From positions 13,702,001 through 13,766,000 of the forward strand of contig CM075103.1 in the NCBI GenBank assembly GCA_037576195.1: a stretch of 64,000 nt of DNA, written 5' to 3'. Under the pieces are notes generated by a model. The model was not told the DNA's origin. It saw nothing but the letters and a program-made list of their open reading frames with translations, and ran no database searches. Positions within the stretch are counted from its first letter, which is position 1. The number at the start of each line of letters is the position of its first letter. The DNA is from Phytoseiulus persimilis (lineage: Eukaryota > Arthropoda > Arachnida > Mesostigmata > Phytoseiidae). Made by a program: the position numbers and the translations under genes. Positions 1 through 64,000 of the stretch are shown piece after piece.

Positions 1-2
1 GT

Positions 3-92
3 TTTCCGATCACGGACTGGTTGGATTCTGCGGTCAATAATTCCCATCCGACGCTTCTGGAAAGGCTGGAAGCTCTCGGAAAAACAGACTAA
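3..92 (+). CDS. 3' terminal codons of an unidentified upstream gene
   Basis: Frame 3 is open from the window edge and ends at TAA (90-92). It gives 29 residues that end in LLERLEALGKTD. The composition (amphipathic, Leu/Glu-rich, no low-complexity stretch) looks like the real C-terminus of a soluble protein. A poly(A) signal lies about 250 bases downstream. The gene would converge on the minus-strand ZCCHC4 gene. I do not recognise the family from this short tail, and the rest lies outside the window. Confidence 0.45.
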   Translation, partial: FPITDWLDSAVNNSHPTLLERLEALGKTD

Positions 93-339
93 TCGAACTC
101 GACTACTTAGTCGAAGCTCAACCTGGCACGCGAGGTTCCCGCTCAAACGTTGTATCTACATTTTCCCATAAGAAATACAAAACACCTCGAGAGTTGGAGG
201 AGAGAAAGAGATGCGCTCAGTTTCCGCCGATGACAAAGCTCGCCATCGAATCAATCCTTACTACGAGTAAGCTTCGATCGGAAGCGAGAAATATTGTACC
301 GGTTCCGGGTGGAAGAAACGATTGCTCGGATGTACGATA

Positions 340-345
340 AATAAA
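340..345 (+). other. Poly(A) signal AATAAA
   Basis: A canonical AATAAA lies 248 bases after the stop codon of the partial gene at the left edge and marks its probable 3' end. From here to 847 I see no coding exon. The stretch holds the converging 3' flanks of two genes. Confidence 0.45.
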
Positions 346-847
346 ATCAATGAGACGTCTTGAGTCTCACTTGAGTGAGTTGTCACCTTTGAACTGTTGT
401 TCGATTGACTAAAATACAGTTTTGTCTGCGCTGCAGAGCGGACGGTGCCGCAGGGGACTGGGTAAGCCGAAGTCCTTACTGTTCCTTACTATCGATTCGA
501 AGCGACGCTCCAGCATCGTTCCGTTCTCATCACGTAAGATGGATCTCTGGTGTACTCAATTTCACAAACGAGCGGTCTGACCCGATGGGAGCTCGCTCGC
601 TCAATGAACCAGCCACATGCCCGCGCAGAACTCTGATCGAACGCATCATATTTAACATGAGAAACCCCTGATTGACCATCCAGCGATTTTACGCCGCTCT
701 CCGTGGTCGTGGGGCAGCGGCCCAACTACTGTTCCATGCGTACCAGGCTAATCTCTGCAAAGGAATTCTCAGCGACGCTAGTATCCGCGGAAGACAGCCG
801 GAAGCATCTCCCACCTGGACTTCGGAACACCAAATCGTCATCATTCC

Positions 848-5700: not shown

Positions 5701-6344
5701 TATCGCAATGCGCGGAATCACAAACGGGCTAATGAATTCGAGCCCACTCCATCTCACGTCTCTCTGCGGACTCGGGTTTTAGTTAAAAAAAAAAACAGAA
5801 GTTCCTGCTCGACAGCGAATCCATCGACAGCCGGGATTATCCTCGAATCGAGTCAGAATTGCGATCGATTCGCCCAGTTGTCAGACGAACACTGCTCAAG
5901 CACGGTCAAGGACTCAACAGATTTAGCCCGAGCCCCTCTCAAGCGTGTAATGCTCATAAGGTAAGTGTACGATCGTCCAACGACGGGAGCAACCGTAGCC
6001 ACTGGCTGCCGCCGGCTCAGCAACAACACTGAACGCTCTGTTAGCGAAGCGTGCATCAAACCGCACGCCGAGTACGAGTCGTGCAGCATTGGCGTGTGGG
6101 AGCTCAGAGCTCCAACAGTACCGCGTGTGTGCCTGCTGTAACGTCAACTTCATCTTGAGCTAGAAGTCTAGAAGAGCAAAGAACACTCATTCCAAAGGAC
6201 GTCCAAGGCTTTGCAAGGAGTTCTTCCATAAGGTTCGGCCTTCAAAGACCCTGGAGGGCCTCTCGGGCACCTGAAACAAACACCAAACTCATCAACGAAC
6301 TCATCAACTCGACCTCGAACACCATAGACTGCATCCAACTCGAG
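2779..6344. other. Gene-poor intergenic stretch
   Basis: Only short, unrelated open frames occur on both strands, none with convincing splice sites or family motifs. It holds a fold-back element near 3.8-4.1 kb and several A-runs. It separates the 5' end of ZCCHC4 from the first exon of the long plus-strand gene, so it probably contains the promoters of both. I find no clear TATA box at either start. Confidence 0.5.
3764..4119. repeat. Fold-back (inverted-repeat) element
   Basis: A perfect 24-base inverted repeat (TTTTGACGTTATAGGATTTA followed by AGAT) occurs at about 3769-3792, with its reverse complement at about 4090-4113. The similarity extends a few bases further on the outer side (GCCATnTTTTGACG). 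The arms enclose about 300 bases without coding potential. The layout fits a MITE or fold-back transposon remnant. I could not define a target-site duplication, so the ends are approximate. Confidence 0.5.
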
Positions 6345-12300: not shown

Positions 12301-15300
12301 GCACACGGTGCTCTCTCTGAACAACAAAGCCTTCTTCCAAGATGATCGGAAATTCATCATGGCTCGACCGCCAGCGAAAGATTTCCTCAAGGTTGGCATT
12401 GTTCGATTGATTGATTGATTGGGAGAACTTCAAGACCTCGGAAATGTGTTGACGATTCTCGATGAGAGCAGTCCGGAGTCTGAGCAAGATTCGAATCGGA
12501 AGAGATGGATCGCACCTCAAGACTACCTCGTCCTTGCAGAATCAAGCAGCGTTCGTATACTTCAACAACATCAGTCCAACATTCGCTCCGGGAGGCGTTG
12601 GCGAAATTGAGATCGTGCTCAAAACGCCTCCGAAGAGCATGGCGCTCTACCTCGTGGAGGTAAGTCCCCGAGATGTTCCCTGAGAAGGAAAGCTCAATCG
12701 GATGGTCGCCTTCTCTAGCGGGGTCGAAATATTCAACACCCTGAAAACCTCGTCCTCTCGCAGCTGTCTTCGAACGACCCGGACGTGAGCGTTTGTATTT
12801 TGAAAATAAAATCCATCGGCGACTCGATGCCCTGTGTGGAAGAATCCACGCCGGCCGACTACTTACTGCACTCCGACCCCGACAACGGCAACAAAAAGGC
12901 TTCTTTGGCCCTCAACGCTCTTGCCAACGTCGGTGAGTTGTGTTTGAAAGCATCCATGGTGGGGAAAGATTTGAGCGTTGAGTGAAATCAGAGCATTGCA
13001 GAGCTGTTGGGTTATTCACAATTTTCCCACCCGCAGGCACCTACCCGATGAAGCAGGGTCGGTTCCTGGACCCGAATTCGTTGGTTTTCACAGCGATCGT
13101 GAAAATCGGTGAGCGTGCCACAAGGAACAAGGCGCTGAAACTCAAAGTTTCCTACGGTTCGAAAGGCCAAATCGAGGACACCGTCATCCTTCCTGTCTCC
13201 ACTTCTCACAACACCACCGGACTCGTCACCACAAACGGAGTAAGTGACGTTGTCGAGTTCTGAGGTTTCATACTGGCAACGAGGGAAAAACGAAAGTTCC
13301 ACGTTATTGATCCAAACCCTTGGCGGATCCGCTCCCCACTCGGGAGATTCCAGAACATTCCTCCGCACCGGGCTCAAAAAGCCTTGTGCACTTCCAGGGG
13401 TCTATTCCACCACGCACGCTCCAATTGGCGCCTTCCGAAGCGGCCCTGACGTCAATCGCACCGGGTGCGATAGCCATGGTCACACTAACGACTGAACTGG
13501 TAGAGTTTACCTCGTCAAGGCTGCGTTTCGACCTCACACTGGACGAGGGTGTCGTCCGCACCACCGATTTGGAAGTCTGCCATGAGGGCATTAGTCACCT
13601 CGGCAAAAACTACCCCTGCTCCTCACCCGATCAGTGGAGCAAACATGGAGAAGGGTATGTTCCGATGTTACAACTGGAATCGTCTCACAGTCGTCGACAA
13701 CTTTCTCAAAAGCTCCCAAAACCTATTTGAAATTCCCTTCCAGTGAAAACCTCCTCGGACAGTACAACCTTGGTTTAGTCTGCAATTCGTTCATCGAACG
13801 ATCTAAACAGGAGGACAACTATGTAGGTTTTCTTGCGTCGACATCCGACATGATTCAGATCTGCGTTGTGCTTTTGACGCTCGAGTTCTCGATGAGCGAA
13901 TTGCTCAATACCGATACGTGTTCGATGACATCGACGAGAGCTTGAAGAGAGGAATGCTTTCCAGCTCCGGTTCACAGTCCCCGTGCTGTTGAAACCCGAA
14001 GCAAATACGTAGAAGGGACTCAACTTGCCATCACTTCCCAACTCGTCACAAGCGGCGGGAAAGAACAGAAGAGCCTGCAGTTGACAGTGGGCGAGAAAGC
14101 CGAGCAAACAGTCGGGAAGGTGAGCCTGAGAGTCGGTTTTCGAGCCAGCGGTTCGTTCCCTTCGCGGAGCAGCTGGGAAGAATCGGTTTCGCTTCAGGAC
14201 ACGGGAGCGTCCCTTTTTGTTCTCTGGAGGCCACATCAGTGCCTACGCGGTCATGTCAGGCCCCTCAGCTCGAGAGTCTCTACTACGTTCATTTCCCCTC
14301 AGTTCTTCGAGCCATCCGTGAAGCCGACGAAGACTGGAGAAGAAAGTATCGGTGTCCGGCAGCGAAGATGGATATCTTTCAACATCACGGTTCCGAAAGG
14401 CGCCATGACGGAGGTGGCCGTCAGTTTGCAGGGCGCCAAGACTGAAAAGGTGAGCGCCGAGCTGGAGCTCACTTGTGTCCCTTGTCAGGAAATTCTCGTG
14501 ACAATGTGTCTGAGGACCGCCAAGTTCATGCGCGCCGTAGTTCCCTTGCATGATTGGAAAGCACGAGCTTTGATGAGACTGTTTCTGTACGGGAACGATT
14601 CCCTCCAGATGGCGATCGTCGTTCTCCACGATCTCCGTATCTCTGCCGTCGGACGAAACATTCCGTGTTACCGAGCCAAAAAGCTCGACGTTAAATTGAG
14701 CTCATCGTTTGGGAACGTTCAGCATGACAAGGCTTCGGCACCTCTGGGATACTTTGCCAATCCTGGTGAGTTCATCGCGTGACAGGTCAGCCTGAACATA
14801 CTTGTTTGGCCTGTGTGAACCGAATGGTGAAGCGGGTTTCTTCATTCCCATCCAGGTTACAGTCATGTGCGAGGGCGCTTCCAACAAGGAGACGATGATA
14901 TCGTCCTCGAGACTCTGGTAGAAATGACGGATCACGAGACGACCGATGATGGGAGCAAGCATCCCATCAGTATCAAGGTGAGATCGAGTTCTCTTACAAC
15001 GTGGGGCTTTGTGGCTCGAACTTTCGGAATTCTTCACAACGAATCGAACCGATCCTTATCTCAAGGTCACAATGGCTGGATGGAATGGAGAGTCCCAGCA
15101 AGAACTCCTCGTCGTTCGTACCGGCAAAGAAGCGACATCCATCGACGTGAAGCTCACCGTTAACGATCGAGTTCCTTTCCAAAGGGGGTGAGTACCACGC
15201 CTTTTCTCAATCATAAGTTCTTGGAGACTATCTCGTGACGTCCTGCGCTGTCCTTCTCCAATCTCAAAGCTCTACGTTCCAGGGAGGAAATTCCCGTCAT

Positions 15301-18300
15301 GGCCGAGCTGAAGCATTTTGCGACATCCTTCATGGAGCCCACTCGAGTGGCTCTTCGCATCTTCCTACCTAACTTCGTTACTTTTGGAGGAGTCACCGAT
15401 GTACATTCGGGTTCGAACTATAAGCCCGAAATCAAGAACGCGACGAATGGAGTTGATATCATAGTGAGTTCAATGAGCCAAGTCCTGATTTGATCAGACA
15501 AGAAGCTTCCGGATATCTCCGCACTTGTGTTGGAATGAACCCGCTCAATTGTTTGGAGATCGGGCTCCGGAAATCTCGAGTCCGATGGTACCCCGCACTC
15601 GATCGATGATAGTTAGATCTGAGAAGCTCAGGCATTACCCATCAATCCATGGATCCATGGAAAGTGCATGGATAGATTAGTGAGTTTCAATCACTGCCGT
15701 GAGACCTGATGAAGTCAACCATCAAACACTCAGACATCCATCTCCTTATGTGGATTGATGGGGAGTATGAAATGATGAATGCCTGAACTTCCTAGCCTCA
15801 ATGACAATCCACAGCCGCGCCTGGTCGTCGGCTTTTGGTGCGGAACTTGCTGAGTTCTCCGTCGCTCGTTCCAGCTACCCAAACTCCTGTTCGCCGACGA
15901 AATTCGTGTGAATATGACTCTCTTGTCGGATCCCGAAAACCGTCGAGGCTACGGTACGGGCGTCATCGAAGCGACGTCTCCATACAGAGTGGAATGCGAA
16001 TACACGCCGAGAAAAGATCGGAGCCCCGAACCGTTCTGCTCGGAACAACATGCGTTGACATACAAGCTCAACTCAGAGGGTAGGCTTGGAAGAACTTCTG
16101 CAATTCGGTTGGACTATTTCCACCGAGCTGTATAGTCGCATTCACCCCAGCTACTTTGATATGAATAATTTCTTTTTCGCAGAGTGTGTCCTCAATCTCG
16201 GTTTGGAGGATAATACGATCAAGGACTGCCAAATCACTGCATCGTCTGCATCCGATTCGCAGCATGCGCCGTTCCACGTGCGTAAAGGCAGTTCTTCAGG
16301 TAAATTGCGATGCTCTGATGGGGTACGAAGTGGTTCAAGATTGTCACTCAACTCAACGGTCTGGAAATTGTGTCTGGTGTTCTTCGAGATAGTTCCAGAA
16401 TCTAAGTGAGTTACTGGCCGGTGAGACCTATGTTTGAATGACTCATTTCTGCTTCCAGCTTGGTCCCCCGCCATAAAAGACGGGATGGACGATCCGTATC
16501 TCAACATTGCATTCCTCAGGGTTACCCGAGTTTCTCAGCTCGAGGTAATCTATGTTCCCGGTACCCGAAGAGTACATAAATATCGACTCCAAGCCAGCAA
16601 TGACGGGAGGAACTGGCAAGAACATCTGGGGGTGAGCTATCTCGTGCTGCCTCGATTTTGTTGCGATTCCACGAAGTACTCCCTCTCTCCGAAGAACCCA
16701 CTTCGGTCTGTCGATCGAGGTTGTGGAATAGGTTCCATCGACCAGAAAGAGCTTTGCAGCTTTGGAACTTGATAGCGATGGAAGATTCACGCGATCGGCA
16801 TTCCACAGATCCGAACACTTTCGTACGAAAATGGTGTCGCGAAAGATAGGCTTCCGTTGGCTGTGCAAGCCCGGCATCTGCGGATCATTGTTGTTGAGGC
16901 CGCAGACGAACACGTCAAGGAAGATTTGAATATTGGGATGCAGCTCGAGCTCTACGGTTGTTACATCGGGCCCTTCTCTGAAAATGGTTCGTGCAGTTCT
17001 CTGGGTATCATTTTGAGACCTCCGCCAAGACGTTTGATTGAGTTCAAAACTGTGAGGACCGTAGAGTGGCGCTCATGGAGCTCTTTGGTCTTCCGTAGCT
17101 CTGCTGAGCGTAAGTCTCCAAAACTAATTCTGACGTTTTCCTCTCAGAAAACTGCCCGGTCGACACAACGTGGTACACGAACATTGAATGTGAGTCGGAG
17201 CGACCTTTTTTCTTCGAACGACGAGTTAGAGCTGTGAATAGAAAACAAGGTGGGGGATTCGAAACTCACCCTAAGACTCTTCGACCGAATTTCAGCGATG
17301 AGAGCTCGACATGTGACAGTAGACACAAACACCGACACAGTGTACTTCTGCGACTTCAGCGATTCGAGGTATGCACGGAGCAGGGGACGGGGGTTGGCTT
17401 GTCGCACTTCATATTCAAATCTGGCTCTAAATCGTTTCCCTGAGAACTCGGATACTCGATCGCACATTGTGATGTCTGCCGCCTCCAGCTAAGCTCTGAG
17501 CTTCCTGGAATGTTTCTGACGAAGCATTGATTCCGATTTCAGTGGGAAGCACTGCATGTCATCTTCTGATGGGGGCGTCACGTGGAAAAGTGAGTTGCAA
17601 TCATTTCGTGAGGAAACCCGCCTCGATCGTGTTGCGGGGTTTAATTCTTGGATTCGATTCGGGGGATCATATGCTTCAAGCAGAAACGCTCGTGAACGAG
17701 AAATCGAGTATCCTCCGAGATTCTCTCCCTCGATGGAATAAAGCCCCGTAGTGGACATGATGTTCTGTTTCACTGCATGTGGAAGATGAAATGGTTTTCC
17801 ATTCCTCGCAGTGCAACCGGCTTTCGTCGGCCGTCTAATCGGATTCGATCAGAGCAAAGGAGTCGTCTACGCTCAGGATAAAATGACGAACGGCTCGTTC
17901 ATCGCCACGAAGGACGGCATTCATTGGATGTCAGTCAGCGAGAAAGAGGTTTGAGCCCCACATCCAGAACCCGTTTTAGCAGTGCGATTTCACGGATCGC
18001 GATGGACGAGTCCACTGAGCTGCAATTCATGTGAGCGTGAGTGAAAATTTTCTCTTCAGGTCAACCCTTCGTCAATGGCGAATTCCGTCGTGGTTCCAGG
18101 GAAAGGACGAAAATCCTTGATCGGGAAAGAAGAGTTCAACTTCGGGAAGTGGAAAGGTAACAGCGAGGATTGCCAGCGGTCCGCTTGCCGGGAATGATGA
18201 CGCGATTCTTTGTCAATCGACAGCCCGCAGCATATCGCATCCGCGAGGAAGCTAAGACTTATAAGTTCATTTCCAGCGACATTCGATGGAATGTTCTTCA

Positions 18301-33401: not shown

Positions 33402-34242
33402 CAGAGATGGGCGTAATCATAATCATGATTATGACTATGATTATTAATCATAGTCAAAGTGTGATTACGAAAATAATCATACTTTGACTATGATTATTAA
33501 TCACATCTTGATTATGATTATGATTAAAAATCGTAGTCAAAGTATGATTATGAATATCCTCATGATTGTGATGACTATATCCATGTATATGATGACTATT
33601 CTTTTTATTATTGTGATTATTATTGTTTCTGGTATACTCAAGCACCCGGTGGAAGGATGACACGCACACGAGGTGCGTGCGGGACCGGGGCCCATGGACG
33701 AGGGATCGATCTTGACCGTACTTTTTGAAGTCAAGGGAAGTGATTCCGAGATCGATCTGGCCATACTTTTCTGAGTATGGAAGAGTGATTCCGGGATCGA
33801 TCTGACCATACTTTTCCGAGTATGGAGGAGTGATTTCGGGATCGATCTGACCATACTTTTCTGAGTATGGAGGAGTTATTCCGGGACCCATCTGTAACAG
33901 CCAGTTGGATTCTGGAGGAAGGCTAGCTCGGATCCCGGAATCTCGTCCATGGACCCGGGCCCCGCACGCACCTCGTGTGCGTGTCATCGTTCCACCGGGT
34001 GCTCGAGTATACCAGAAACAACAATAATCACAATAATAAAAAGAATAGTCATCATATACATGGATATAGTCATCACAATCATGAGGATATTCATAATCAT
34101 ACTTTGACTATGATTTTTAATCATAATCATAATCAAGATGTGATTAATAATCATAGTCAAAGTATGATTGTTTTCGTAATCACACTTTGACTATGATTAT
34201 TAATCATAGTCATAATCATGATTATGATTACGCCCATCTCTG
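33402..34242. mobile_element. Inner hAT-type element with very long inverted arms
   Basis: The termini are the perfect inverted repeat CAGAGATGGGCGTAATCATA, directly flanked by the 8-bp target duplication CGAGGATG (33394-33401 and 34243-34250). The arms extend nearly 290 bases inward as almost perfect reverse complements, first rich in ATAATCAT, then containing GTGCGTGCGGG. The centre holds a tandem repeat. It lies inside the outer hAT element and so inserted later. His/Asn-rich open frames over the arms are a by-product of the repeat. No transposase is present, so movement would need an enzyme supplied elsewhere. Confidence 0.9.
33730..33893. repeat. Tandem repeat inside the inner hAT element
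   Basis: About three full and one partial copies of a unit of roughly 55 bases that contains GATCGATCTGACCATACTTT and TCTGAGTATGGAGGAGTGAT. Copies differ by a few substitutions. It occupies the loop between the long arms and is the only internal part that is not inverted-repeat sequence. Confidence 0.8.
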
Positions 34243-51103: not shown

Positions 51104-52143
51104 GTTTGTCATCTCATTCCGTTGAATCGATACAGTACCGTGTCCATAGATTAGTGCACGACACGTATGAGTATAAAGATGCAAAATGTGAGCTGTACTC
51201 AGTTGATAGAAATTCTTGGACTCATGTTTTGTAAATTAGGTTTTGGGATAAAGTTCACAATGACTAGATGTTCGGAAGTTTGTTCGGTTCCTCAATGTCT
51301 CAGGAAGATGACTGAATGCGGAAGCGGAGTCCGCGCCGCACCTAACCGGAGCTTCATAATTTGTGCTCCGCTGATGACTAGATTCGCATCCGGTTCCTCA
51401 AACTTTGGTGATATGAGAAAACGGTTCATGGCATGTGGGTCATACAGTCACACACCGTGGCACAGTTTCGCACAATGCCTACGTGAAGAGACGCTCCATA
51501 GGAGTGTCTTAGGGCTCAATCGCAGAGTTCAACCAAACGCAATTTGGCTCACAATTCAAGTAGGAGCTTACCTCCGGCGACTTCCAGACCGAATCTCGGA
51601 GCCGGGAGCAGCATTCTACGGGGATTTTCCAGAGCTCCGAGAGCTCCTTCTGATCCCAAAAATGAGATAAATATGAGATCATTCGTTCAGAAACGAGGAG
51701 CGAAAATCCGTGGGAATCGTCCCTCCAAGGACAATCATAACTCGAAGTTGAGCCCATGCTAGCTTCCTTCATCGAACGGTCGCCGACAAGAGGAGAGTTT
51801 CCGAATCATTCACTGCTCGTCTAGTTTGCATGGTTCTCGCAGCCGGGAATGTTCTCGCACACTCACACTCAAACTTAGAGGAAGAGTTGAAAGTTACCAA
51901 ATTCTACACGGAGAATCTATATAATGTTGACAGATGTCAGCACGGTGGACGTCGTGATTGATGAGTTGATATCGTGTTTGGATCAATGCGCCTGTTGAGG
52001 GGGCTGGTTTGATCTGAACGGAAAATTCCATGGCACTCCAGCTCGAGTTTCGCTGGAAGTTCGGCAAAAGTGATTTTCTTGAAGACCGACAGGCGAAGAA
52101 ACGTGAATGATGAGTGGGTGCTCGGCATGAAGTACTATTCTCT

Positions 52144-54557
52144 TCACTGGGCGCTGTCGTAAAAGTGTCCGGTTGCTTTGTCGGTCGCCTCGGTGGGGAT
52201 CGGCAGTGGTCGGTTCTGCAACGCGAATAGATTTTCCAGCTGGAGCGTACGCAAACCGAAAGTTCATGAAAACCACAGCTCGAGGTCTTCGACGCGACGT
52301 TACCTTGGGTGCCTCTTTCCGGCTCCATGTTCCCGTGGTGTTCGCTCCCGGAGCCATTGTGGCGCTCTGCATGGCCACAGCTGCTGGGTCCGGAACAGTT
52401 CCGTACGTGACCGTGAGCTCGTTTCCGGCAGCGTCGACGTATCGTTGTGGCATCATGGTGCCGTACAGCGCCATTTCTAGAAAGCAGACAAACGATTGCA
52501 TAAAACGAGCCAGGGCTGCCATACGACTCTCCTCCGGTCCTTTCGAGCCGATACCATACCTTGCGGCATCGGGGGTACGGCAATGTTCTTCATTTGTCGA
52601 CAGCAAATGCACGAGGAAACCACGATCACGATGACGGCGAGAGCCAAGGCCGCCGCGGGAATCACGAGATACATGTTCAGGTAGAGGGGGATGTCGTTCG
52701 AATCGAAAATTTCCACGAGACCGTTGTCCGCTGAAAAGGAACGGATTCCGTCAACTCCGACGCCGAGGGAGCCGAGGAGCGGGTTCGTACGGAAGAGTTT
52801 CTCACATGATCTCAGGGTCTGAACTTTGAGAATCTGCGAAGGATCGCTCCTGATCGCGCCGTTGATAGCGGTGAGGAATATTTCGTAGGTGGTTCCGCTC
52901 CGAAGGGCTTCGAGAGTGTAGGCGTTCTCCGTGGAGTTGATGAGCAAGTGTTCCAACCACGCACCTCCGTCGGCTTGGCGATGGTGTATGGTGTAATCTG
53001 CGGATGAGTTCGATGACGGGATGAAACATGAGTGATGCTGGGTTGGTCGTTGGTTCGGACGTTGGGGGCGAAGCCTCGACCTCGAACGATACTCACTGAG
53101 TTGTTGACCACCGGTGCGGAGCTGCCACCGTAGTTTTATGCTGTCTATTCCCACCGCGTCTACGAAGAGTCTAGGCACTTCCGGGGAATCCTCTGCAACG
53201 GGATTTCGGTCAGACAGGAGCTATCGATAAGCCTCCGAATGGGAGAAAAGGATTGAATTCCGCCGCGGGAGCCTCACCTCCGGCGCGCGTCATCACGAGA
53301 CTCTGAGGACTGCTTGGACCGGAGCCCGCGTGGTTGTAGGCCTGGACAGTGATGACGTACTCGGTGCCTCGGTTGAGGCCTTGCAGAATGTACTCGTGAG
53401 TGACGTTATTCTTTTGTTCGACCTGGAGAAATATCGAAGGCGTTCATTTTCCGTCGTCCTCGATTCTCATTCAAGATTTTCGAACCTCTTCCGTTGCATC
53501 GTTCGCAGCCAAACCGCAGAAATTTATTCGTTCACTGTAGCCGAACCAGAACCGACCCCGCTCTGTGGAATCAAGATCAACTCACTTTACGGAAAGATGA
53601 GGTTTTCGGTGAGGCTTTCGGCTTGAAGCCGATGTAGTACCCTTCGATATCCCCGTTCCAGGAGACTTTTTCGGGTGCTTTCCACGAAACCAGCACTGTT
53701 GTTGGGCCTTGAGTGATGGCGTTCACATCGAGAGGGGGAGCCTCAGGCTCTTCTTCATTCGTGGTGAACGTCACGGTTCTCGACGCCTCGCTCTTGCCGA
53801 TCGCGTTCTCGGCCACCACGTTTAGAACGTAATGAGTTCCGGGCTGCAGCTCTCGAACCAGCGTGAAGTGTTGTGCTGAAGAAACTTCGAGCTCTTGTTG
53901 CCGGAAGTTCTGACCCTGATCTCTCCAGTAGGTCACGATGAACTTCGTGATCGGGCTGTTGCCGTCGTATGACGGAGTCCAATGGAGGGAAATCGACCGC
54001 GACCAGATGTCTTTCACCTTGAACGTACGCCATCCAGTTCAAGACGAGAGCTCAAAGCTCAGGGACGAATTCTTCGCATATGAATTCTTCGACGCGATCC
54101 GAGACAACCGGTACCGCAGATGGGAGAAACCTGTTCATATTACCTTCACATCCTGAGGGGCGCCAGGCACGTCTTTTACCACCAGTTTGACTTTGCGGTC
54201 GTCCGTTCCATATTTGTTCTCTGTGTGGCACGTGTACAGTGCTGAGTCCGCTCTGTCTGTTTCCCGGATTCGAAGCTCCGAAGACATGCCATCGGTAGTG
54301 ATTGACTCGATAATTTCATATCTGATAGTAGAGAATCGTTATCAGAGATATCTGCTTCTCACAGAACTTCAGCGAACTCCATGCGGGCCCTGAGGAAGAA
54401 TCAACCCACCTCGAGCTGGTTCTTTTGTCGAGTTTTACGTTGCCCTTCGACCAAACAACGGATATGGGATGGTCTCCGACAGCGTAGCATTTCAGTGTCG
54501 TGGTATCCGAGCGTCTTGAGGTGACAACGGACGCTTTTTCTTTGAAACGGGCTGGAA
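52144..54557 (-). CDS. sDscam constant region: Ig3, FNIII 1-3, transmembrane, cytoplasmic tail
   Basis: Nine exons, complement(52144..52215, 52304..52476, 52560..52730, 52806..52997, 53097..53192, 53278..53422, 53586..54017, 54144..54321, 54410..54557). The lengths add to an unbroken frame of 535 codons plus stop. The first two exons form Ig3 (Cys in LKCYAVGDHP, Trp in VVWSKG, Cys in ALYTCHTENKYG). The next five encode three FNIII domains. A transmembrane helix follows (VIPAAALALAVIVIVVSS, then CICC). The tail of about 90 residues carries tyrosines in MALYGT and VTYGTV and ends GHFYDSAQ. Chelicerate short Dscams share this plan: two variable plus one constant Ig, few FNIII domains, one membrane pass. 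They mediate homophilic cell recognition. The first exon accepts phase 1 from every cassette. The alternative NAGNAG-like acceptor six bases on would drop two residues (VP). Confidence 0.92.
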
Positions 54558-54820
54558 CTGATTTTGGTACAGATGGTTAGATATTTCTTCAAACGGCCCT
54601 GGCTGTGGAGAGAATTTCGTTCGAGAAAAATAGAACCATCATCAGATGATTCTATTTTTCCGATGGAAGTTATTCCCAAGTATCATTCCACAAGAACCGG
54701 AACCGGATCGGAGCTATGGATGGTCCGATTCTCGAGGATAGATTCATCATCATTTGAAGGTTTGAACTCTTCCCAAAGTTCCACACGCCCCGCCGACTGC
54801 GATGACTTCGATTAAAATAC

Positions 54821-55618
54821 CAGTGAGGTGAACAGCGACTGTTTTACGGATGCTCCCGAGTTCGTTGGAAGCATCGCAGGTATATTCGCCCTCGTCAAAC
54901 TTCGAAACATGTTTTATTCTCAATAGACCATCTCCAACTCTCTGTTGTACATCGGTCGCTAGTGCCACATCGCCTGGAAATCGGAATCACAAAGTTTATT
55001 CCAGAGAAGCTCCTGCTCTCTGAGCCGGAATGGATCCGGAGGGAACCGGGCAAAGCCCCTTTCCAGGGAAAAACATTGACATACCTTTCGAAATCCGCAC
55101 GCTCGGATTGGGATGCCCGAGAGCTTTGCAGTTCACCACAATCTCATCGTCTAGAACTGCATCAACTCGATCGGTTTCACTTGCCCACTTCGGTTTGAAT
55201 TTCAACTCTACATTAACAGACATTTGATCAGAACCGAACGCGTTCTTGGCGGAGCATGTGTAGTTTCCGACGTGCTCAGAGCCGAGCTCGTTTATTTGCA
55301 AGCTGTTTTGATATTCATTCGAGTGCACGACTTGGACGCGAGGCAAACGGTCCACTGGATTGCCGTCTTTCGACCACTGGTAGGATATCGGTGAGGTTCC
55401 TACCGTCACTGAACACATGAGAGACAGCCGTCGTCCTTCGGTCAGATCCTCCACCACTTTGAAGGGTGAAATTTGGGGTGGAGCTGAAAAATGTTCCCGT
55501 GAGAAGGCCAGTCCGACAAAACAAGGGAGCTCAATATTCTCATCGGGAACCAACCTTGACCGCTGAGATATCCGACGAAAAAAGTCAACAGAATGTAATT
55601 CACAATCGCGCGCTTCAT
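54821..55618 (-). CDS. sDscam 5' cassette G (nearest the constant exons): signal peptide, Ig1, Ig2
   Basis: Three exons: 55555..55618 (signal peptide MKRAIVNYILLTFFVGYLSG), 55085..55483 (Ig1 and first half of Ig2), 54821..54973 (second half of Ig2). Ig1 has LMCSV, QWSKDG and GNYTCSAKNAFG. Ig2 has VNCKALGHPNP and GEYTCDASNELG. It is the most divergent Ig1 of the array, with HSNEYQNSLQI where the others have DDFQxxLQI. The start is the ATG at 55618. An in-frame GTG lies four codons upstream and is not used here. Its last exon is 263 bases from the Ig3 exon, the only cassette that can be spliced without skipping others. Confidence 0.88.
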
Positions 55619-55682
55619 GGCGTCGAGCACTTTACAGGAATGGCGTCTTCGAGCTTGCCTTCACGGTACCCCTTGCGGTACC

Positions 55683-55701
55683 GGTGGCGCCGTCTTGTGG
55701 T
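55683..55701 (-). promoter_or_regulatory. CTCF-like promoter motif of cassette G
   Basis: Coding-strand sequence ACCACAAGACGGCGCCACC, 65 bases upstream of the cassette start codon, the shortest spacing of the seven. It matches the general CTCF consensus CCRCnAGRnGGCGC in forward orientation relative to transcription. Confidence 0.72.
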
Positions 55702-55921
55702 ACACATTGAGACTAAACCTGACCAACAGTGCGTGTATTTTTGAATTTCTGCGCAACAATCTGGGCATAGCCGAATCGATGGTCGTTCACGATTCAGAAA
55801 CCTCAATCTCGAGACCGCTGCTAGACCTCATCCGGGGCCAAATTCGCAGACATAGTCGGCGAGGCCAAAACACAGCGTGGCCGTCGGATCCTGCGATACA
55901 AAGCAAGCGCGGGAAAGTTAC

Positions 55922-56995
55922 CACTCAGAGTGACGAGGACGCTTTTGGAAATTCTGCCGAAGGGATTGGAAGCTGCACAATTATATTCGCCGCGGTCTCT
56001 CCCGGAAGCTTCCTGAATCACTAGAACACCGTCCTGGACCGAAGCTTTCGGAACTTCGTCTGAACCTGGAAGGAAAATATCGGGAACGTCAAGGAGACTG
56101 TCATCTCCGATCGAGTGGGAACGTCCGGCGAGCGAACATGATATAATCATTCAGGTCGCAATTTCGTCTCGCTTCTCAATCAAACTGAAGAAAACTATAT
56201 TGATTGTCGCGATTCCCGAATTGCTCTGACATCAAAGTGAGGTCAGACCCGAGACATTCCCTCAAGTCTGCCTCCCTGAGAACGTATCGGTCGCCAAGAA
56301 CCTGAGAGAATTCGTAAGTTTTCTCCTTGGAACTCTAAAAGGAATCGAGCTCGCTCGCACTCGATTCGCTGTTTCAGTCCACAGTTTTCACGGCCCTCAT
56401 TGGTACTATTGGTTCCGCTACCATTGGTGCTACTCGGGAGAATTTGAATCTAACTCACCTTTGAAAAGCTCGAGCTGCGGTTCGGGGTGGCCAAGTGCTG
56501 CACAGTCGACCCGTATCAGTCCCCCAGCCACTCCCTGAACGATTTTTTCTCCCGACTTCCATTTTGGAGCAAACTTCAACATCACTTGCACGGCCATACG
56601 GTCGGAGCCGTACGCGTTTTTGGCGTTGCACGTGTAGTTCCCAGCGTGCTCGGCGCCGAGTTTCTCAATCTGGAGCTGGTCTTGGAAGTCATCGAGGTGA
56701 ACCAGTTTCACATTGGGCAAATCACCCAGAGGTTTACCGTCCTTCAGCCAAGTGAACGACATTGGAGGAGTTCCGAGGGTGACTGAACACACGAGTGAAA
56801 GTCGGCGACCTTCTGAGAGGTCCTCGGAAATTTTGAACGGCGAAATCTGGGGTGCCACTGAAAAAGCCTGGCCATCAGAACTGGAGTGACGCCACGCTTG
56901 GCCAGGTCATTCCCGGAGTGGTCAACAGCCATACCTTGAGAGAGGACTTGTGCTACAGAAGTGAGCGACGCAAACAGCCAGAATGGAACACACAT
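55922..56995 (-). CDS. sDscam 5' cassette F: signal peptide, Ig1, Ig2
   Basis: Exons 56935..56995 (signal peptide MCVPFWLFASLTSVAQVLS), 56459..56857, and 55922..56065. Ig1 has LVCSV, FTWLKDGKPLG, DDFQDQLQI and GNYTCNAKNAYG. Ig2 has VDCAALGHPEP and GEYNCAASNPFG. All joins are phase 1 and the Ig1 exon is 399 bases, as in most cassettes. The Ig2b exon is 144 bases, nine shorter than in cassette G, so the Ig2 C-D region differs in length between isoforms. The second intron is 393 bases. Confidence 0.9.
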
Positions 56996-57086
56996 AATGG
57001 GACCGACGCGGAAACACACCCAGCAATCGGAAGAATTCGCAGCGTCGAGCCTATTCAACAATCGTGGGGTAACAGACCACGGTGCA

Positions 57087-57105
57087 AGTGGCGCCGTCTT
57101 GCGGT
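57087..57105 (-). promoter_or_regulatory. CTCF-like promoter motif of cassette F
   Basis: Coding-strand sequence ACCGCAAGACGGCGCCACT, 92 bases upstream of the start codon at 56995. It differs from the motif of cassette E at one position. Confidence 0.75.
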
Positions 57106-57296
57106 CGGGCTCTGAGTTACCTCGGTATTTACAAATGGCAACGTTGGCCCGGGAGTGGAAGTCAGGGATTCCCGAACGGAATATGAGCACAACGTAAGAA
57201 GAGTACGGGCGAGACACAACATTCGAATAGGGAACAATGGAGACGGCGGCAATACGACCAACGAGGGACTTCGAGTCGGATAGGAGCACGATTTAC

Positions 57297-58516
57297 CGCT
57301 CAGGAGGACAGAGACAGTTTTCGTGATTTTTCCGAGTGTGTTGGAAGCTTCACAGAAGTATTCTCCCTTGTCGGACGATGAAACGGTTTCGATACGTAAA
57401 CGTCCGTGATCCGAGCGACTTTCGGCGATTTCGCGTCCATCTGGAAATAACGGAGAACGGAATGCTGAGTTAGTGCGATCGACTTCTGTATTCGTATTCA
57501 CGGGAGCGCTTCGAGCAATCGAGATTCTTTCTCTTGAGTTCGCAACCGTCGGCGAACTACGGTAGCCGTACAGAGTTGGGGTAGTTCACACCAGAAGCGT
57601 TGGGAGGGTTCTCTTAGTCCACACATCGGACCATTGCTAAAGTGAACGTCTGTCGAAAACTCGGTGAGCGGAATCGCTGCAGATGTTTTTTCAACGCTTT
57701 GAGATCCTCCGAGTTCCCTATTCGTCGATTCGACTCGCGAGTGAATCATCGATTGATTGCTAGGACCCACGCGAAGTTCCGGCCGTGTATCACAGCAACA
57801 TCTTTCACTCCATCAAATGCTTCAGTTCGTTATCTTGTGACGCCCTTTGCAGCTCACTACGGAAAGGATAGCTTGGATCATTCATCGTTGTTTCGCAAGA
57901 GATTTGGTACTTGAAAACTTTGGAAGATTGATGCTCGGGCTCGACAACAAATCGGAGAAGTCCTGGGACACTCACCTTTGGAAATTTTGACGATGGGTTG
58001 GGGATGTGCGATCGCTCCACAGTTCACATCCAACGCTTCTCCGGCCACGCCGGACACACTTATGCTGTCGGACTCCCACTTCGGAGCGAACCTCAACACA
58101 ACCTGAATCGACATCCGGTCAGATCCATAGGCGTTCTTCGCATTACACGAATAGTTCCCCATATGTTCCGCGTCGAGGGACTCGATTTGCAACTGGTCTT
58201 GGAAGTCATCGAAATGCACGAGTTTCACGCCTGACACGTTGCCGAGTGGCTTCCCATCTTTCAGCCAAGTGAACGAGATTGGGGCCGTCCCTGACGTGAC
58301 CGAACAAACAAGCGACACTCTTTTTCCTTCCGAAAGGTCTTCGAGTACCTTGAAGGGCGATATCTGAGGCGGGGCTGTAACAGCGTCTGGTAAGCTCAGG
58401 ACTACAAGTTAGGCCTCATAGACGAACACCGAGAACGATCGAAGCGTACCATTCGTTGCAGCCTGCACAAGAGCTCGAAAGCATACTAAAACCATGAGTT
58501 TCAACCTCGTCTCCAT
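57297..58516 (-). CDS. sDscam 5' cassette E: signal peptide, Ig1, Ig2
   Basis: Exons 58450..58516 (signal peptide METRLKLMVLVCFRALVQAA), 57976..58374, and 57297..57440. Ig1 has LVCSV, FTWLKDGKPLG, DDFQDQLQI and GNYSCNAKNAYG. Ig2 has VNCGAIAHPQP and GEYFCEASNTLG. It is closest to cassettes D and F in Ig1 (shared KLVHxDDFQDQLQI), which points to local duplication. The signal exon is the longest of the array (67 bases). A second ATG at codon 8 would leave a short but still usable signal peptide. Confidence 0.9.
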
Positions 58517-58613
58517 TTCACGATCCGGGCTATCACGCGTCTGTACGACACATGGTGCTTCAACGCAATAGTGAGCAGGATAAACGACGCTCAGCATCAA
58601 GAACCTCGGTACC

Positions 58614-58632
58614 AGTGGCGCCGTCTTGTGGT
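58614..58632 (-). promoter_or_regulatory. CTCF-like promoter motif of cassette E
   Basis: Coding-strand sequence ACCACAAGACGGCGCCACT, 98 bases upstream of the start codon, the longest spacing of the seven. It fits the motif consensus at every position. Confidence 0.75.
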
Positions 58633-58825
58633 CGGACATTGCGACTTTGCCGTCGACCAACCAGGGAAGCCGATTCGAACCTTCGAAACTTTTTTCCGCG
58701 CGAAAACTCAACACGAGTTGATGAACTCGAGATTCCGAGTGGAAGGACGGAGAACCGAGACGGAATGAAGTTATGGAACTCAGAGATCGTGAGCCAGGGT
58801 TGGTGACGGGGAGTTGTCAAATTAC

Positions 58826-60014
58826 CACTCAGAGTAACGGATAATGTTTTGGAGATTTTCGCAATCGCGTTCGATGCTTCGCAATGGTATTCTCCTTTGT
58901 CTGCCGCGGATGCCTGTTTTATCAAGAAGCGGCCGTTTTCGTTGGCCAATGGAACCGACAGAGGAGCACCTGAAAGAGGGGGAGGCGAGGGTTAAAAATT
59001 GATGAACACAGACAATCTAGTGACAATGAGATCACCTCGCAGCCTGCGACTGGGAGAACGCAGGGCTTCGAGCACTAATTCTCATCTTCGAAGGAATCCC
59101 GAATGCTCCACACAACTTTTTCCAAGGCTTTGAGACTTGATACAGAGATGCAGGACACGGACGCCTTCTCGGATCCGACAGGAACTATCCTCATGATTCG
59201 ACCCTGCATTATCTCGAGACAGCTCGGAAAATTCGATAATTCACCGCGACTCTACCCCGAAATCTTGAGGGAGAGGGAAACTTCGTTGCCGAAAGACTAC
59301 ATGTCGAGAGAATCATATTTACCGCACATAGTCTCAGACAAAAGTCATGTATCTGCTAGGTGCGCGACACGAGAGACTCTAGAGTAGGACACGAACGAGA
59401 GAGATGATTCCCAGGGAAGCATCGGATCCGTATCTAGCTTTCTCCACAGAGAAAATAAGGAGCAGCTATTGAGAGACCGTAGAGAGCAACTCACCCTTGA
59501 AAATTCTCACATCGGGGTTCGGGTGTCCTGCAGCCGAGCAATCGATTAGGATTTCATCACCAGCAACTCCAGGAATACTTTTGGCATCACTATTCCATCG
59601 TGGGGCGAATTTCAGCGCAACGGGAACAATGATCCTATCCGTCCCGTAGGCATTCTTCGCGTCACAGGTATAATTGCCAATGTGCTCGCCGCCCAAGTCG
59701 TCAATCTGAAGCTGGTCTTGGAAATCATCGATGTGGACCAGTTTCACTCTGGGAAGTTTCCCGATCGGGATGCCGTCTTTGAGCCACACGAAGGATATTG
59801 GTGGTGTGCCGGAATTCACCAAGCATATCAGCGAAAGCCGCTTGCCTTCCGCCAAACCTCCGAGGCTCCTGTGCTGGGCGATCTCAGGAGGAGCTGGAAT
59901 ATTCCTGAATGAGCGTCGTTCGTCTGGGTCGACCTGACCCTAAGCCTAGCCGATATACGAACCGTTGGCGACGCAGAAACGCACAAAGCCGACAACTAGA
60001 CACCACACGATCAT
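58826..60014 (-). CDS. sDscam 5' cassette D: signal peptide, Ig1, Ig2
   Basis: Exons 59963..60014 (MIVWCLVVGFVRFCVAN), 59495..59893, and 58826..58969. Ig1 has LICLV, FVWLKDGIPIG, DDFQDQLQI and GNYTCDAKNAYG. Ig2 has IDCSAAGHPNP and GEYHCEASNAIA. The signal peptide is the shortest (17 residues) and its donor GTTCGT is weaker than in the other cassettes. The frame is also open upstream, so a start further 5' (near MMASFSVW) is possible. The Ig1 N-terminus AQHRSLGGLAEG is unlike the PFKxxEDLxEG of neighbours. Confidence 0.85.
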
Positions 60015-60094
60015 AACCCCGTCTGAGCGGTGGCCAAACCACACCGAAAAGGAAGCCATCATTTCTACCGGCAAGCCATGTTCCCTGAAGCACA

Positions 60095-60113
60095 GGTAGC
60101 GCTCCCTCGCGGT
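60095..60113 (-). promoter_or_regulatory. Divergent CTCF-like motif of cassette D
   Basis: Coding-strand sequence ACCGCGAGGGAGCGCTACC, 81 bases upstream of the chosen start codon. The GGCGCCAC core has become AGCGCTAC, but the site still fits a relaxed CTCF consensus (CCGCGAGGnnGCGCTA). It is one of the two most diverged of the seven. Confidence 0.65.
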
Positions 60114-60322
60114 ACAATTGAGCAGCCATGTTCCTGGGGAACGATTCGAACTGGACGCGGAAACTCCGCACGGCCTCGAACGACTTCCTCGGCGACACGA
60201 AGGATGCATTTCGGAGGGCAGAAATCAGTCACAAAGGTGGCCGGAAGCTCCATCTGAGCTCACCAATATCGGAACTTCAAAACGCGCGCTAGACATTTAG
60301 GCTCGCATGGGGGAATCTTTAC

Positions 60323-61204
60323 CACTGAGAACCAACGAGAGAACTTTCGAAATTTCCCCAAATCCATTCTGAGCAAAGCACCGATATTCTCCCCGATCAT
60401 CCAACGCGACTTTCTGGATAATGAGGATGCCGTCTTGGACAGAATATCTTCCGTTAGGAGGAACCACGCGGTTGCCTGGAATGAAAGGAGAATTTCCTGT
60501 GGGGATATTCGGGAAACTCGATGATGATTTGCTGAGAAACCTTCGCAGATCCTGACGCATCAGGCGTTTCTCGACCGAACTATCGTAGAAAGCGACATGT
60601 GCACCAACGTGCTCAGGACTCGAAAACTTGAGTTTTTTTTGGAGTGCTTCGATGATGAAAGTTTACTCCTCACCTTTGAATATGTCCACTTTAGGCACAG
60701 GGTATCCTCTAGCTCCACAATCCAAAGTCACGGACTGTCCAACAAACGCGTTCACACTTTTCAGCTCCTCACTGTTCCATCGTGGTTTCAGTTTCAGCAG
60801 CACTTGGAGCACGAGGTGATCCGAGCCGTGAGAGTTCCTGGCGGTGCAGGTGTAGTTGCCGACGTGCTCGGCAGCCAAGCTTTCGATTTGGAGCTGATCT
60901 TGGAAATCGTCAATGTGCGAAATCTTGACTCCTGCTAGGGTTTTCATGGCATTTCCGTCCTTGAGCCAGGAAAATGCGAAGGGCGGTGTTCCTGAGCTCA
61001 CTGAGCACATGAGTGACAATCTTTTGCCTTGCACCAGGTCGCTGGGTATCCTATGAGGAGCTATTTCCGGCGGAGCTGAAACGATAGGGGTAAATACCCG
61101 TTCGGTTTTCCCGGAGGAGAGCGCATTCATGAGGCTTACTCACCAGATTTCGCAGAACTTTCAGAAAAATACAAAAACAGGAGGCCGATGAGGAAAGGTG
61201 ACAT
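60323..61204 (-). CDS. sDscam 5' cassette C: signal peptide, Ig1, Ig2
   Basis: Exons 61144..61204 (MSPFLIGLLFLYFSESSAKS), 60674..61075 (402 bases, one codon more than most), and 60323..60475. Ig1 has LMCSV, FSWLKDGNAMK, DDFQDQLQI and GNYTCTARNSHG. Ig2 has LDCGARGYPVP and GEYRCFAQNGFG. Residue choice in the Ig1 loops (NAMKTLAGVKISHI) differs strongly from the neighbours. All junctions are GT-AG, phase 1. Confidence 0.9.
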
Positions 61205-61277
61205 GATCCCGCAGTGTTGTAGATGACGCTCGCAGACTGAGGAACTGTAGGCTTACGCTGTACAAGAATCTTATCCT

Positions 61278-61296
61278 AGTGGCGCCGCCTTGCGGT
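61278..61296 (-). promoter_or_regulatory. CTCF-like promoter motif of cassette C
   Basis: Coding-strand sequence ACCGCAAGGCGGCGCCACT, 74 bases upstream of the start codon, the same spacing as in cassette B. Further conservation (ATTGT just before the motif) is shared with cassette D. Confidence 0.75.
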
Positions 61297-61751
61297 ACAA
61301 TTGGCAATCGTGAGGGTTGTACGCCTTTATTTGAAATCTAGGTACAGAATCTTTTCCCTACCGAACACAATCAATATTATCCGGTTGGGAATGCCACGGA
61401 TAATTCAGCTACGATGCTCCTCCGAAAGAAGGATTCTGCACAAACACTCGATTACGACACGGCGGTCGGTCACGCGGAAGTCCATCAGACTCTCGGTAAC
61501 AGCGGGTTCGAGGTAAATGAAATGTGTATTTGAGTGATGTGACGGAAAACATATTCGATATGCTTATGAATCACCTCCCCACACTAGAGTGGGGTGCCAA
61601 AAAGAATAGATGATATTGAATGGTTCGCTACCTATTCTGATCAAGGGTAATACATTTTCAGAGTAACGAAACAGCAGGAGTATCGAATAAATTATTCAGC
61701 AAAATTCAGCAATCACCGACACTCGCCCCGCGAATCCGTCAAGTAGCCTAC

Positions 61752-62571
61752 CGCTCAAAACAACGGACACAGTTTTTGAGGTCAATCCTTCAGAGTTCTC
61801 TGCCGCGCATCGATATTCGCCCCTATGAGAGGGAATCACTTCTCGGATTGTGATCAGTCCCGATCGCTCTTCCACGCCGCGTGATAGAAAGTTTCGCCCA
61901 TCTGAAAGCGTTGTGACAGTGCAAACGGTTGAGACTATCTCTCAGACGTATTCTTCCCCGTCGGCATGCCCGATCGCTGTGCAGAAATACTGCTATCTCG
62001 GGCAGCTGTCCGGAAGCCTCCACAGACCTTTGGTGGTGCTGAATACGGGCGTCGGGAAGCCGATATAGCGACAATCTATCTCGAGTCTCTGGCCCACAAT
62101 CGCCAGCATTGTTGTCTCGTTCGACAAAAACCTCGGTTTGTACTTCAGAGCGACAGCAACACTCATCTGGTCGGTCCCGAACGCGTTCTTGGCCGTGCAG
62201 GTGTAGTTTCCCACATGCTCGACGGACAGCGTTTCAATCTGCAAAACATTTTGGAAGTCGTCTTGCAGGGATATTCTGGTTCCTGGCAATGAACCGATCG
62301 GGTTGCTATCCTTCAACCACGTAAAAGAAATCGGTGGCGTGCCAACGGTAACGGAACACATCAGGGAAAGGCGGCGATTCTCGACCGGATCCGCCGGCAA
62401 CTTGAAAGGAGTTACTTCAGGAGCGACTGGAAGTTACGCGGTTTCAGTGGGGCTTGTCCTGTTCGAGGTCGGAGCGAGTTCGAGAAAAGTTTCAGGAATC
62501 AAGTTACCTTGAGCGATGGACCGACGAAGAAGCACACCAAGTACTAGCAGAAGCATCGACGCCATTTTCAT
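61752..62571 (-). CDS. sDscam 5' cassette B: signal peptide, Ig1, Ig2
   Basis: Exons 62508..62571 (MKMASMLLLVLGVLLRRSIA), 62028..62426, and 61752..61901 (150 bases). Ig1 has LMCSV, FTWLKDSNPIG (Ser for the usual Gly), QDDFQNVLQI and GNYTCTAKNAFG. Ig2 has IDCRYIGFPTP and GEYRCAAENSEG. The acceptor of the Ig1 exon (TTCCAG) directly precedes TCGCTCCTGAAG. It fits the common cassette plan throughout. Confidence 0.9.
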
Positions 62572-62644
62572 CCGATAACACTAATCCCGGTTCGGGACCG
62601 TGACCGCTTGCCTGCTCAAGGCTTTGTGGCAAAAGCCTGATATG

Positions 62645-62663
62645 AGTGGCGCCGCCTGGTGGG
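62645..62663 (-). promoter_or_regulatory. CTCF-like promoter motif of cassette B
   Basis: Coding-strand sequence CCCACCAGGCGGCGCCACT, 74 bases upstream of the start codon. The CCACCAGGCGGCGC part is close to the textbook animal CTCF site. Confidence 0.78.
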
Positions 62664-62931
62664 ACCGGTGGAGATTTTTCGAATTGCGTCAAATTTGAAA
62701 TCTCAATCCATATTCTCTCGCAGCGATACTCGATAGGGTCCGCGCGGGAGAGCCCGGTTATCGTCGGACAAAGAGTGATAATTACCCTGAATAACCGATG
62801 ATACCTATGACAGGATGTCTTGTATTTGTGCCCGCTTTTTGTCGTGGGCTCGACACTCCATGCTCCTCTGAGCAGGAGAACGTTCCAAGATCCGTAAACT
62901 AACTCGCCGTAGCTAGCGCTCATCCAATTAC

Positions 62932-63727
62932 CGCTGAGTATCACGGAGACGTTCTTCGAGATCCGCCCGAGAGCGTTTTCTGCTTCGCAACGGTAATCGC
63001 CCTTGTCTTCCGTGGTTACACTCTGTACCGTGATGACTCCTCTATCGAACGATAAGCGTGAATTTGGAACGATTTCCTGCTCGCCTTGAATGGAATTCCA
63101 ACCCTGAGCTTCCATCTTTCGTTATCCGAACGAATATCTCCCTCGTTCCGAACGGACTCACTGTGGAACACTCGCAGAGTTGGAGTCGGGTATCCAGCTG
63201 CAGCGCAGTCTATAGCTAAGACTTCGCCCGGTGCCACATTGAGCTCCCCCAGGACGCTCTTCTGCCAACGAGGAGCGAAATTCAACAACACCGGTACCGA
63301 GATGTGATCCGCGCCGTACATGTTCTTCGCGTTGCAAGTGTAGTTCCCCACGTGATCGACGGTGAGTTTTTCAATTTGGAGCACGTCCTGGAAGTCGTCC
63401 ATATGGGCTATTCTCACGCCCGGCAGGTCTCCGATCGGCTTTCCGTCTTTGTGCCAGACAAACGAGATCGGAGGGCTCCCAGAAGTAACTGCACACATGA
63501 CCGAGAGACGATTCCCCTCCGAGAGATCCTCCGGCACTTTGAATGGCACTATCGCTGGCCGTACTAGAAGTTGGACGAATCGAACATTGAAATTTCGCTT
63601 CGACAACTTCCCATTCCACTCCAGAATCAGAATGGAAGCGGACAGATCGGGAATCATGCTCACCTTGAGCCGCACAAACATCGCTGAGCAGCGACACAAA
63701 TGCTGTGACTACCAGGCAAAGGGCCAT
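62932..63727 (-). CDS. sDscam 5' cassette A (most upstream seen): signal peptide, Ig1, Ig2
   Basis: Exons 63664..63727 (MALCLVVTAFVSLLSDVCAA), 63162..63563 (402 bases), and 62932..63084. Ig1 has VMCAV, FVWHKDGKPIG, DDFQDVLQI and GNYTCNAKNMYG. Ig2 has IDCAAAGYPTP and GDYRCEAENALG. The Ig1 exon ends in A at the donor, so the split codon reads AGC (Ser) where the others read Gly. The acceptor chosen for the last exon (TTCAAG at 63085) is the one that keeps phase 1. Further cassettes may exist beyond the window edge. Confidence 0.88.
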
Positions 63728-63801
63728 TTCGATCACCGGATAGGCCTACCCAGCGCGGGACGCCATAGCCATTCTTGGGTTCGGCACTGGACAGCAGGAC
63801 C

Positions 63802-63820
63802 AGTGTGTCCCCCTGGCGGT
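63802..63820 (-). promoter_or_regulatory. Divergent CTCF-like motif of cassette A
   Basis: Coding-strand sequence ACCGCCAGGGGGACACACT, 75 bases upstream of the start codon. GGCGCC is replaced by GGGACA, yet CCGCCAGGGGGACA is still a good general CTCF match. The position relative to the start codon is as in cassettes B and C. Confidence 0.68.
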
Positions 63821-64000
63821 ACATTCGAGTATCTGCTCGGTCGCCGTCGATTCGAAATTCAAGCGTTCACAGTTTGGGATGGAATCGGCGGAAATTATTC
63901 CCGGAAAAATCGTCAGGACTCTCGGTTTCCGAGCAGGTGGGACGAATTGTGAGACAGCTCCCTCAGCACAGTGGGAAGCTCGTGCGGCTCTGGAGAGCTT

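Follow-up and report, generated by a model that had tools for sequence, protein, structure and literature searches.

How is one cassette chosen from the tandem array of an sDscam gene? This is an open question, and we have approached it in the mite Phytoseiulus persimilis through a stretch of 64,000 nucleotides of contig CM075103.1 (positions 13,702,001 to 13,766,000; assembly GCA_037576195.1), referred to here as the window. Its top end holds seven cassettes, V1 to V7, of what appears to be an sDscam-beta gene, and a 19-bp element that resembles a binding site of CTCF precedes each of them. Such an element, kept by selection at every visible promoter, is a concrete and testable candidate for a part in cassette choice.

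A conserved 19-bp element before each visible cassette

A first-pass annotation of the window had placed the element 65-98 bp before each start codon, always in the same orientation. All seven copies are found where it located them, on the coding (minus) strand, and its spacing agrees with a direct count of 64-97 bases in between, the gaps to the predicted ATGs being 74, 79, 73, 80, 97, 91 and 64 bases from V1 to V7. The claim that every promoter is marked holds for the seven visible cassettes, but the array may run past the end of the window. The uniform orientation, although present in seven of seven, carries no evidential weight because tandem duplication copies orientation.

Five of the sites depart from the proposed consensus by one mismatch at most, the others being V1 with four and V4 with five. 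Scanning both strands of the 64 kb with up to three mismatches recovered five of the seven elements and zero further copies beyond these, while 100 shuffled sequences gave a mean of 0.05 matches and a maximum of 1. Matrices built from six sites ranked the held-out seventh at the top in all seven tests, with 0 of 127,964 positions scoring better and with small margins for the divergent sites V1 (13.9 vs 13.0) and V4 (14.1 vs 13.0). The top non-site match in the window, at 18344 on the plus strand, scores 14.2, with 0.66 expected by chance. When at most 200 bp ahead of each ATG are compared, the best 19-mer shared by the seven stretches differs from its counterparts in the other six by a total of 19 mismatches; the minimum in 100 random first-order Markov sets was 41.

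Mean column identity across the seven elements is 76%, and the surrounding sequence is saturated. Identity is at chance level both in the stretch that begins 150 bp and ends 6 bp before the element (26%) and from 24 bp past its first base onward (27%), with intermediate values of 35% and 50% for the bases directly beside it; the DNA of cassette exon 2, which encodes Ig sequence, is 53-67% identical. Conservation of the element between non-coding flanks at chance level means that it is under purifying selection and is not left over from a recent duplication.

The earlier description of the DNA between cassettes as otherwise not conserved is right for these flanks but misses a second, weaker block in most cassettes. 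This block resembles ATTTCRAAT and lies within 60 bp upstream of the 19-bp element, in most cassettes at 38-57 bp and in V1 to V4 at 38-41 bp. V5 shows it with two mismatches, at 49 and 57 bp, V7 with two at 46 bp, and V6 with three. For widths of 8, 9, 10 and 12, it was equalled by 0, 1, 1 and 4 of 500 random window sets of seven stretches each, in a 58-bp region that was picked after the result of an earlier and weaker scan over 150 bp had been seen (1, 10 and 3 of 60 random sets equal for widths 8, 10 and 12). Because of this post hoc choice, and because the window contains the 8-mer TTTCRAAT 12 times, the block is suggestive only; together with the element it hints at a two-part promoter.

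Directly following the V7 element, GGTACCGCAAGGGGTACCG at 55660-55683 repeats the element's left half, ACCGCAAGG, and could be a second half-site.

Resemblance to CTCF binding sites

We compared the element with 28 motif models, three of them for CTCF, a small set that cannot stand in for a complete motif collection. Within it, two CTCF models ranked highest (z 5.5 and 5.0), followed by YY1 (z 4.0) and the fly CTCF core (z 3.0). The vertebrate CTCF matrix aligns with 17 of the 19 element positions, forward relative to transcription, and a score as high was reached by only 2 of 5000 permutations of the columns and by none of 5000 motifs with randomized letters. All seven sites keep the CC of matrix positions 4-5 and the AG of 9-10; the divergent sites V1 and V4 have G at position 12, which CTCF prefers, and V4 also has GCGCTA. 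Under the CTCF model, site p-values range from 1.6e-6 to 1.7e-4, and every site contains one base that is strongly disfavoured. Matches to the vertebrate matrix scoring above 10 number 12 in the window, five of them at cassettes, where 4.4 are expected by chance. CTCF itself is reported to be ubiquitous in arthropods (PMC5094011). The CTCF likeness put forward by the first-pass annotation, with the top rank among 28 models and a forward orientation behind it but a systematic off-consensus base in its way, is a resemblance and not proof. Judged by base pattern, the element is a putative site that the species' own CTCF probably binds.

A locus laid out like an sDscam-beta gene

The seven cassettes follow one another in tandem on the minus strand from 63.7 to 54.8 kb, and constant exons come after V7, from 54.56 to about 51.9 kb (Table 1). 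Every cassette comprises three exons, one for a signal-peptide-like segment, one for Ig1 with the start of Ig2 and one for the rest of Ig2. V2 has no script model, its first two exons having been placed by eye from the sequence, and in V1 the script found no CAG to define the exon 3 acceptor. The alignment of the seven N-terminal proteins contains 31 invariant columns. V6 yields Ig domain matches in Pfam, and among its best PDB matches are Dscam chains such as 7y6o (E 1e-29) and 3dmk, ranked below a many-Ig titin chain at the top. In the constant region, Pfam recognizes fn3 in three frames (E 4e-23), I-set under the curated cutoff (E 7e-4) and FN3_DSCAM just short of its own (38.5 vs 39), and a hydrophobic stretch near 52600-52670 reads as a transmembrane segment. 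Cassette models, Ig and fn3 matches and the Dscam chains in PDB bear out the proposed sDscam identity and cassette organization, and they support, at the level of sequence, a layout like that of a chelicerate sDscam-beta gene.

Tandem 5' cassettes joined to constant exons are the reported arrangement of chelicerate sDscam genes (PMC4835542, PMC5775551). In Metaseiulus occidentalis, sDscam-beta1 and sDscam-beta2 are described as having lost cassette introns and as carrying blocks of 21 and 33 cassettes (PMC5775551). The three-exon cassettes of the present locus fit this intron loss. If the gene is one of these two or a close relative, the window holds part of the array only. Since the window stops 180 bp past the V1 element, a next cassette could not be visible, and the array probably continues beyond the edge. 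The intron preceding the constant exons contains an inverted repeat at 54560-54700 (AAAAATAGAATCATC...GATGGTTCTATTTTT), a possible hairpin.

Table 1. Coordinates of the cassettes, the constant region, the 19-bp elements and the second upstream block within the window
Feature	Coordinates	Strand	Remark
Cassette V1, predicted ATG to exon 3 donor	62932..63727	-	exon 3 acceptor uncertain
Cassette V2	61752..62565	-	exons 1-2 by eye
Cassette V3	60323..61204	-	gene model and alignment
Cassette V4	58826..60014	-	gene model and alignment
Cassette V5	57297..58516	-	gene model and alignment
Cassette V6	55922..56995	-	gene model and alignment
Cassette V7	54821..55618	-	gene model and alignment
Constant region: third Ig, fibronectin III domains, transmembrane segment, cytoplasmic exons	51900..54560	-	Pfam and sequence reading
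CTCF-like element, V1	63802..63820	-	ACCGCCAGGGGGACACACT; 3' half divergent
CTCF-like element, V2	62645..62663	-	CCCACCAGGCGGCGCCACT
CTCF-like element, V3	61278..61296	-	ACCGCAAGGCGGCGCCACT
CTCF-like element, V4	60095..60113	-	ACCGCGAGGGAGCGCTACC; divergent
CTCF-like element, V5	58614..58632	-	ACCACAAGACGGCGCCACT
CTCF-like element, V6	57087..57105	-	ACCGCAAGACGGCGCCACT
CTCF-like element, V7	55683..55701	-	ACCACAAGACGGCGCCACC
Second block (ATTTCRAAT), V1	63850..63858	-	exact
Second block, V2	62693..62701	-	exact
Second block, V3	61329..61337	-	exact
Second block, V4	60144..60152	-	1 mismatch

A possible role in promoter choice

Promoters of their own are reported for sDscam cassettes in scorpion, where two of them drove luciferase in fly cells and activity was kept after truncation to about 300 bp (PMC4835542). 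For the mite array we propose that the 19-bp element is a promoter-proximal site for a zinc-finger protein with a long motif, most likely the species' CTCF, and that selection keeps it at each visible alternative promoter. CTCF on a promoter might mark that promoter for activation by a shared enhancer, might insulate it from neighbouring promoters, or both, and the outcome would be the use of one or few cassettes per cell. A promoter-proximal CTCF site acting in promoter choice or insulation is the best explanation we can offer, and its chances seem to us evenly balanced; for a role of the element in promoter choice or insulation overall, which we infer, our confidence falls a shade below that. 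In clustered protocadherins, the forward CTCF sites of the promoters have reverse-oriented partners at an enhancer downstream with which they pair, and they insulate neighbours as well (PMC7811963). Were such a pairing or insulating arrangement present here, it would explain why the element is conserved.

Several points weigh against a CTCF site of this kind. Each of the seven sites has exactly one base with a frequency below 0.05 in the vertebrate CTCF matrix, namely C at position 12 (five sites), C at 16 (V1) or A at 13 (V4). Single-site scores with this matrix are unremarkable in 64 kb; V5, the best, reaches 16.3 and V1 7.3, and the highest score among 30 random sequences, 16.9, lies above V5. 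The z value of the fly CTCF consensus, AGGTGGCG, is low and that of the YY1 model is high. Across the 52 kb downstream, no convergent CTCF partner above chance was found: the best plus-strand candidates, at 14599, 18344 and 41586, are at chance level, and an enhancer could sit outside the window. Furthermore, domains in flies and echinoderms are reported not to be organized by the orientation of CTCF motifs (PMC13317027), and the 2018 survey of sDscam genes suggests that these are regulated in another way than by protocadherin-type looping (PMC5775551).

The ratio of observed to expected CpG, 1.10 in the window and 1.14 in the array, gives no sign of germline CpG methylation, and phytoseiids are reported to be without Dnmt1 and Dnmt3 (PMC6902594). 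The ratio, an indirect measure, makes a protocadherin-style methylation gate at these promoters appear unlikely, in line with the reported absence of both enzymes. Accordingly, the parallel with protocadherins drawn by the first-pass annotation fits in its layout but finds neither a partner site above chance downstream nor a CpG content that would go with a methylation gate. The missing partner, the CpG ratio, the fly and echinoderm data and the inherited orientation together favour a role of CTCF in marking promoters or insulating them locally, which we consider more likely than looping-based choice; a protocadherin-like looping mechanism appears doubtful to us. In its full form, the idea of convergence would be that chelicerates came independently of vertebrates to select among tandem oriented promoters by means of CTCF and cohesin, that they use for this an adhesion gene of another family and no DNA-methylation gate, and that cells thereby gain individual surface identities; this, too, we hold to be rather improbable.

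Alternative explanations

Instead of a CTCF site, the element could be part of the core promoter or a YY1-like site, located on the transcription start or shortly past it, where a factor other than CTCF would bind and do no more than activate these promoters in a general way. YY1, with the consensus CAAGATGGCGGC, is the second-ranked factor in the motif comparison, and the block 38-57 bp upstream suggests a two-part core promoter with the 19-bp element possibly at the start site. However, none of the seven sites has the YY1 core ATGG intact, position 12 being C or G, and YY1 leaves unexplained both the 3' AC and the CC at positions 4-5, which lies outside its motif and is nevertheless always kept. 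The element also has no copy elsewhere in the window and is absent at a ZCCHC4 homologue, the sole unrelated gene that is confidently recognized there; because one gene is a poor control, the element may still be a general promoter element. We regard this account as possible, though on the unlikely side. A further alternative is a multi-zinc-finger protein other than CTCF, specific to the lineage and devoted to the promoters of sDscam; it would suit a motif that is long and non-palindromic and that has C at position 12 in five of seven sites, a base disfavoured by known CTCFs. Yet the remaining columns fit CTCF above any other model tried, and the proposal requires an additional unknown protein; we find it distinctly unlikely.

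The two remaining accounts do without a DNA-binding protein. Splicing of Dscam1 is guided by RNA pairing, and the element falls in an intron of read-through transcripts, where it might be a selector whose pairing with a docking site guides cassette splicing or trans-splicing. With the intron that precedes the constant exons, however, it pairs no better than shuffled elements do, of which 24 to 147 of 200 were as good for the seven elements, and Rfam gives no match; a pairing scan of the whole locus had no null and was hence not used. We rejected docking and selector pairing, equalled as it is by shuffles, as very improbable. A functionless relic of recent tandem duplication could be expected among cassettes that are tandem paralogues, but it is contradicted by flanks at chance level beside an element of 76% identity, and we consider it scarcely credible.

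Remainder of the window and other sequence collections

The homologue of ZCCHC4, which is an rRNA methyltransferase, lies at about 1037-2751 on the minus strand, in pieces in three frames. Coverage of positions 1-14998 was uneven, with one frame searched by Pfam and five by PDB. Between 15001 and 51999, nearly 37 kb, Pfam gave no match above cutoff in six frames and three below it, the best being F5/8 type C at 16458-16628. Pfam searches with 30 of the 51 open reading frames returned 0 families, and a scan by codon bias for further genes lacked the strength to be used. A 45-bp tandem repeat of 4.3 copies occupies 33702-33894. Scans for independent arrays elsewhere found none among 140 candidate stretches of viral contigs and, in genome contigs, one locus with an Ig-like match of 27% identity in a Verrucomicrobia genome, which was not used; neither collection yielded a locus from a chelicerate.

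Relation to known systems

In the open literature, with subscription papers and most supplements outside the scope, we found, among the matches listed, nothing linking CTCF to sDscam bar a cited title. Neither 'CTCF' nor 'motif' occurs in the available part of PMC4835542, and 'CTCF' is likewise absent from PMC10154414; predicted promoter elements are given in the available parts of PMC4835542 and PMC5775551, a shared CTCF-like motif is not. The CTCF-like element thus appears to be undescribed for sDscam in the open literature searched, which is not proof of novelty. Also new here are the second, weaker shared block, the CpG ratio of 1.1 that speaks against a methylation gate, and the probable continuation of the array past the window.

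The locus shares with other chelicerate sDscam arrays the tandem 5' cassettes of signal peptide and Ig sequence and the constant exons for Ig, FN3 and transmembrane segments, and alternative promoters are reported for such arrays. Its cassettes have three exons, whereas two or four are usual in the chelicerates described (PMC4835542, PMC5775551). The CTCF sites of Drosophila have an AG-R-n-GGCG core like the elements described here, but their consensus has T where these have C (five of seven) or G (two of seven).

The comparison with vertebrate clustered protocadherins has two sides. The protein families are unrelated, Ig here and cadherin there, and the distance to the ATG is 64-97 bp here as opposed to about 200 bp for the conserved sequence elements (CSEs) of mouse protocadherins (PMC4978886). 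In contrast to the CSE, the mite elements have one strongly off-consensus base per site and their binding by CTCF is putative; reverse partner sites were not found in the window and CpG is not depleted. Nevertheless, in both systems the alternative promoters of a tandem array of adhesion genes have one element each, within a short fixed range before the start codon and in forward orientation, and both elements are CTCF-like with a GCGC(C/T) core, the CGCT box being present here in V4 only. If CTCF does bind, two unrelated families of recognition genes would have converged on one regulatory solution, which, if true, would bear on whether the function of oriented CTCF sites is a vertebrate invention, one of the alternatives raised in PMC13317027.

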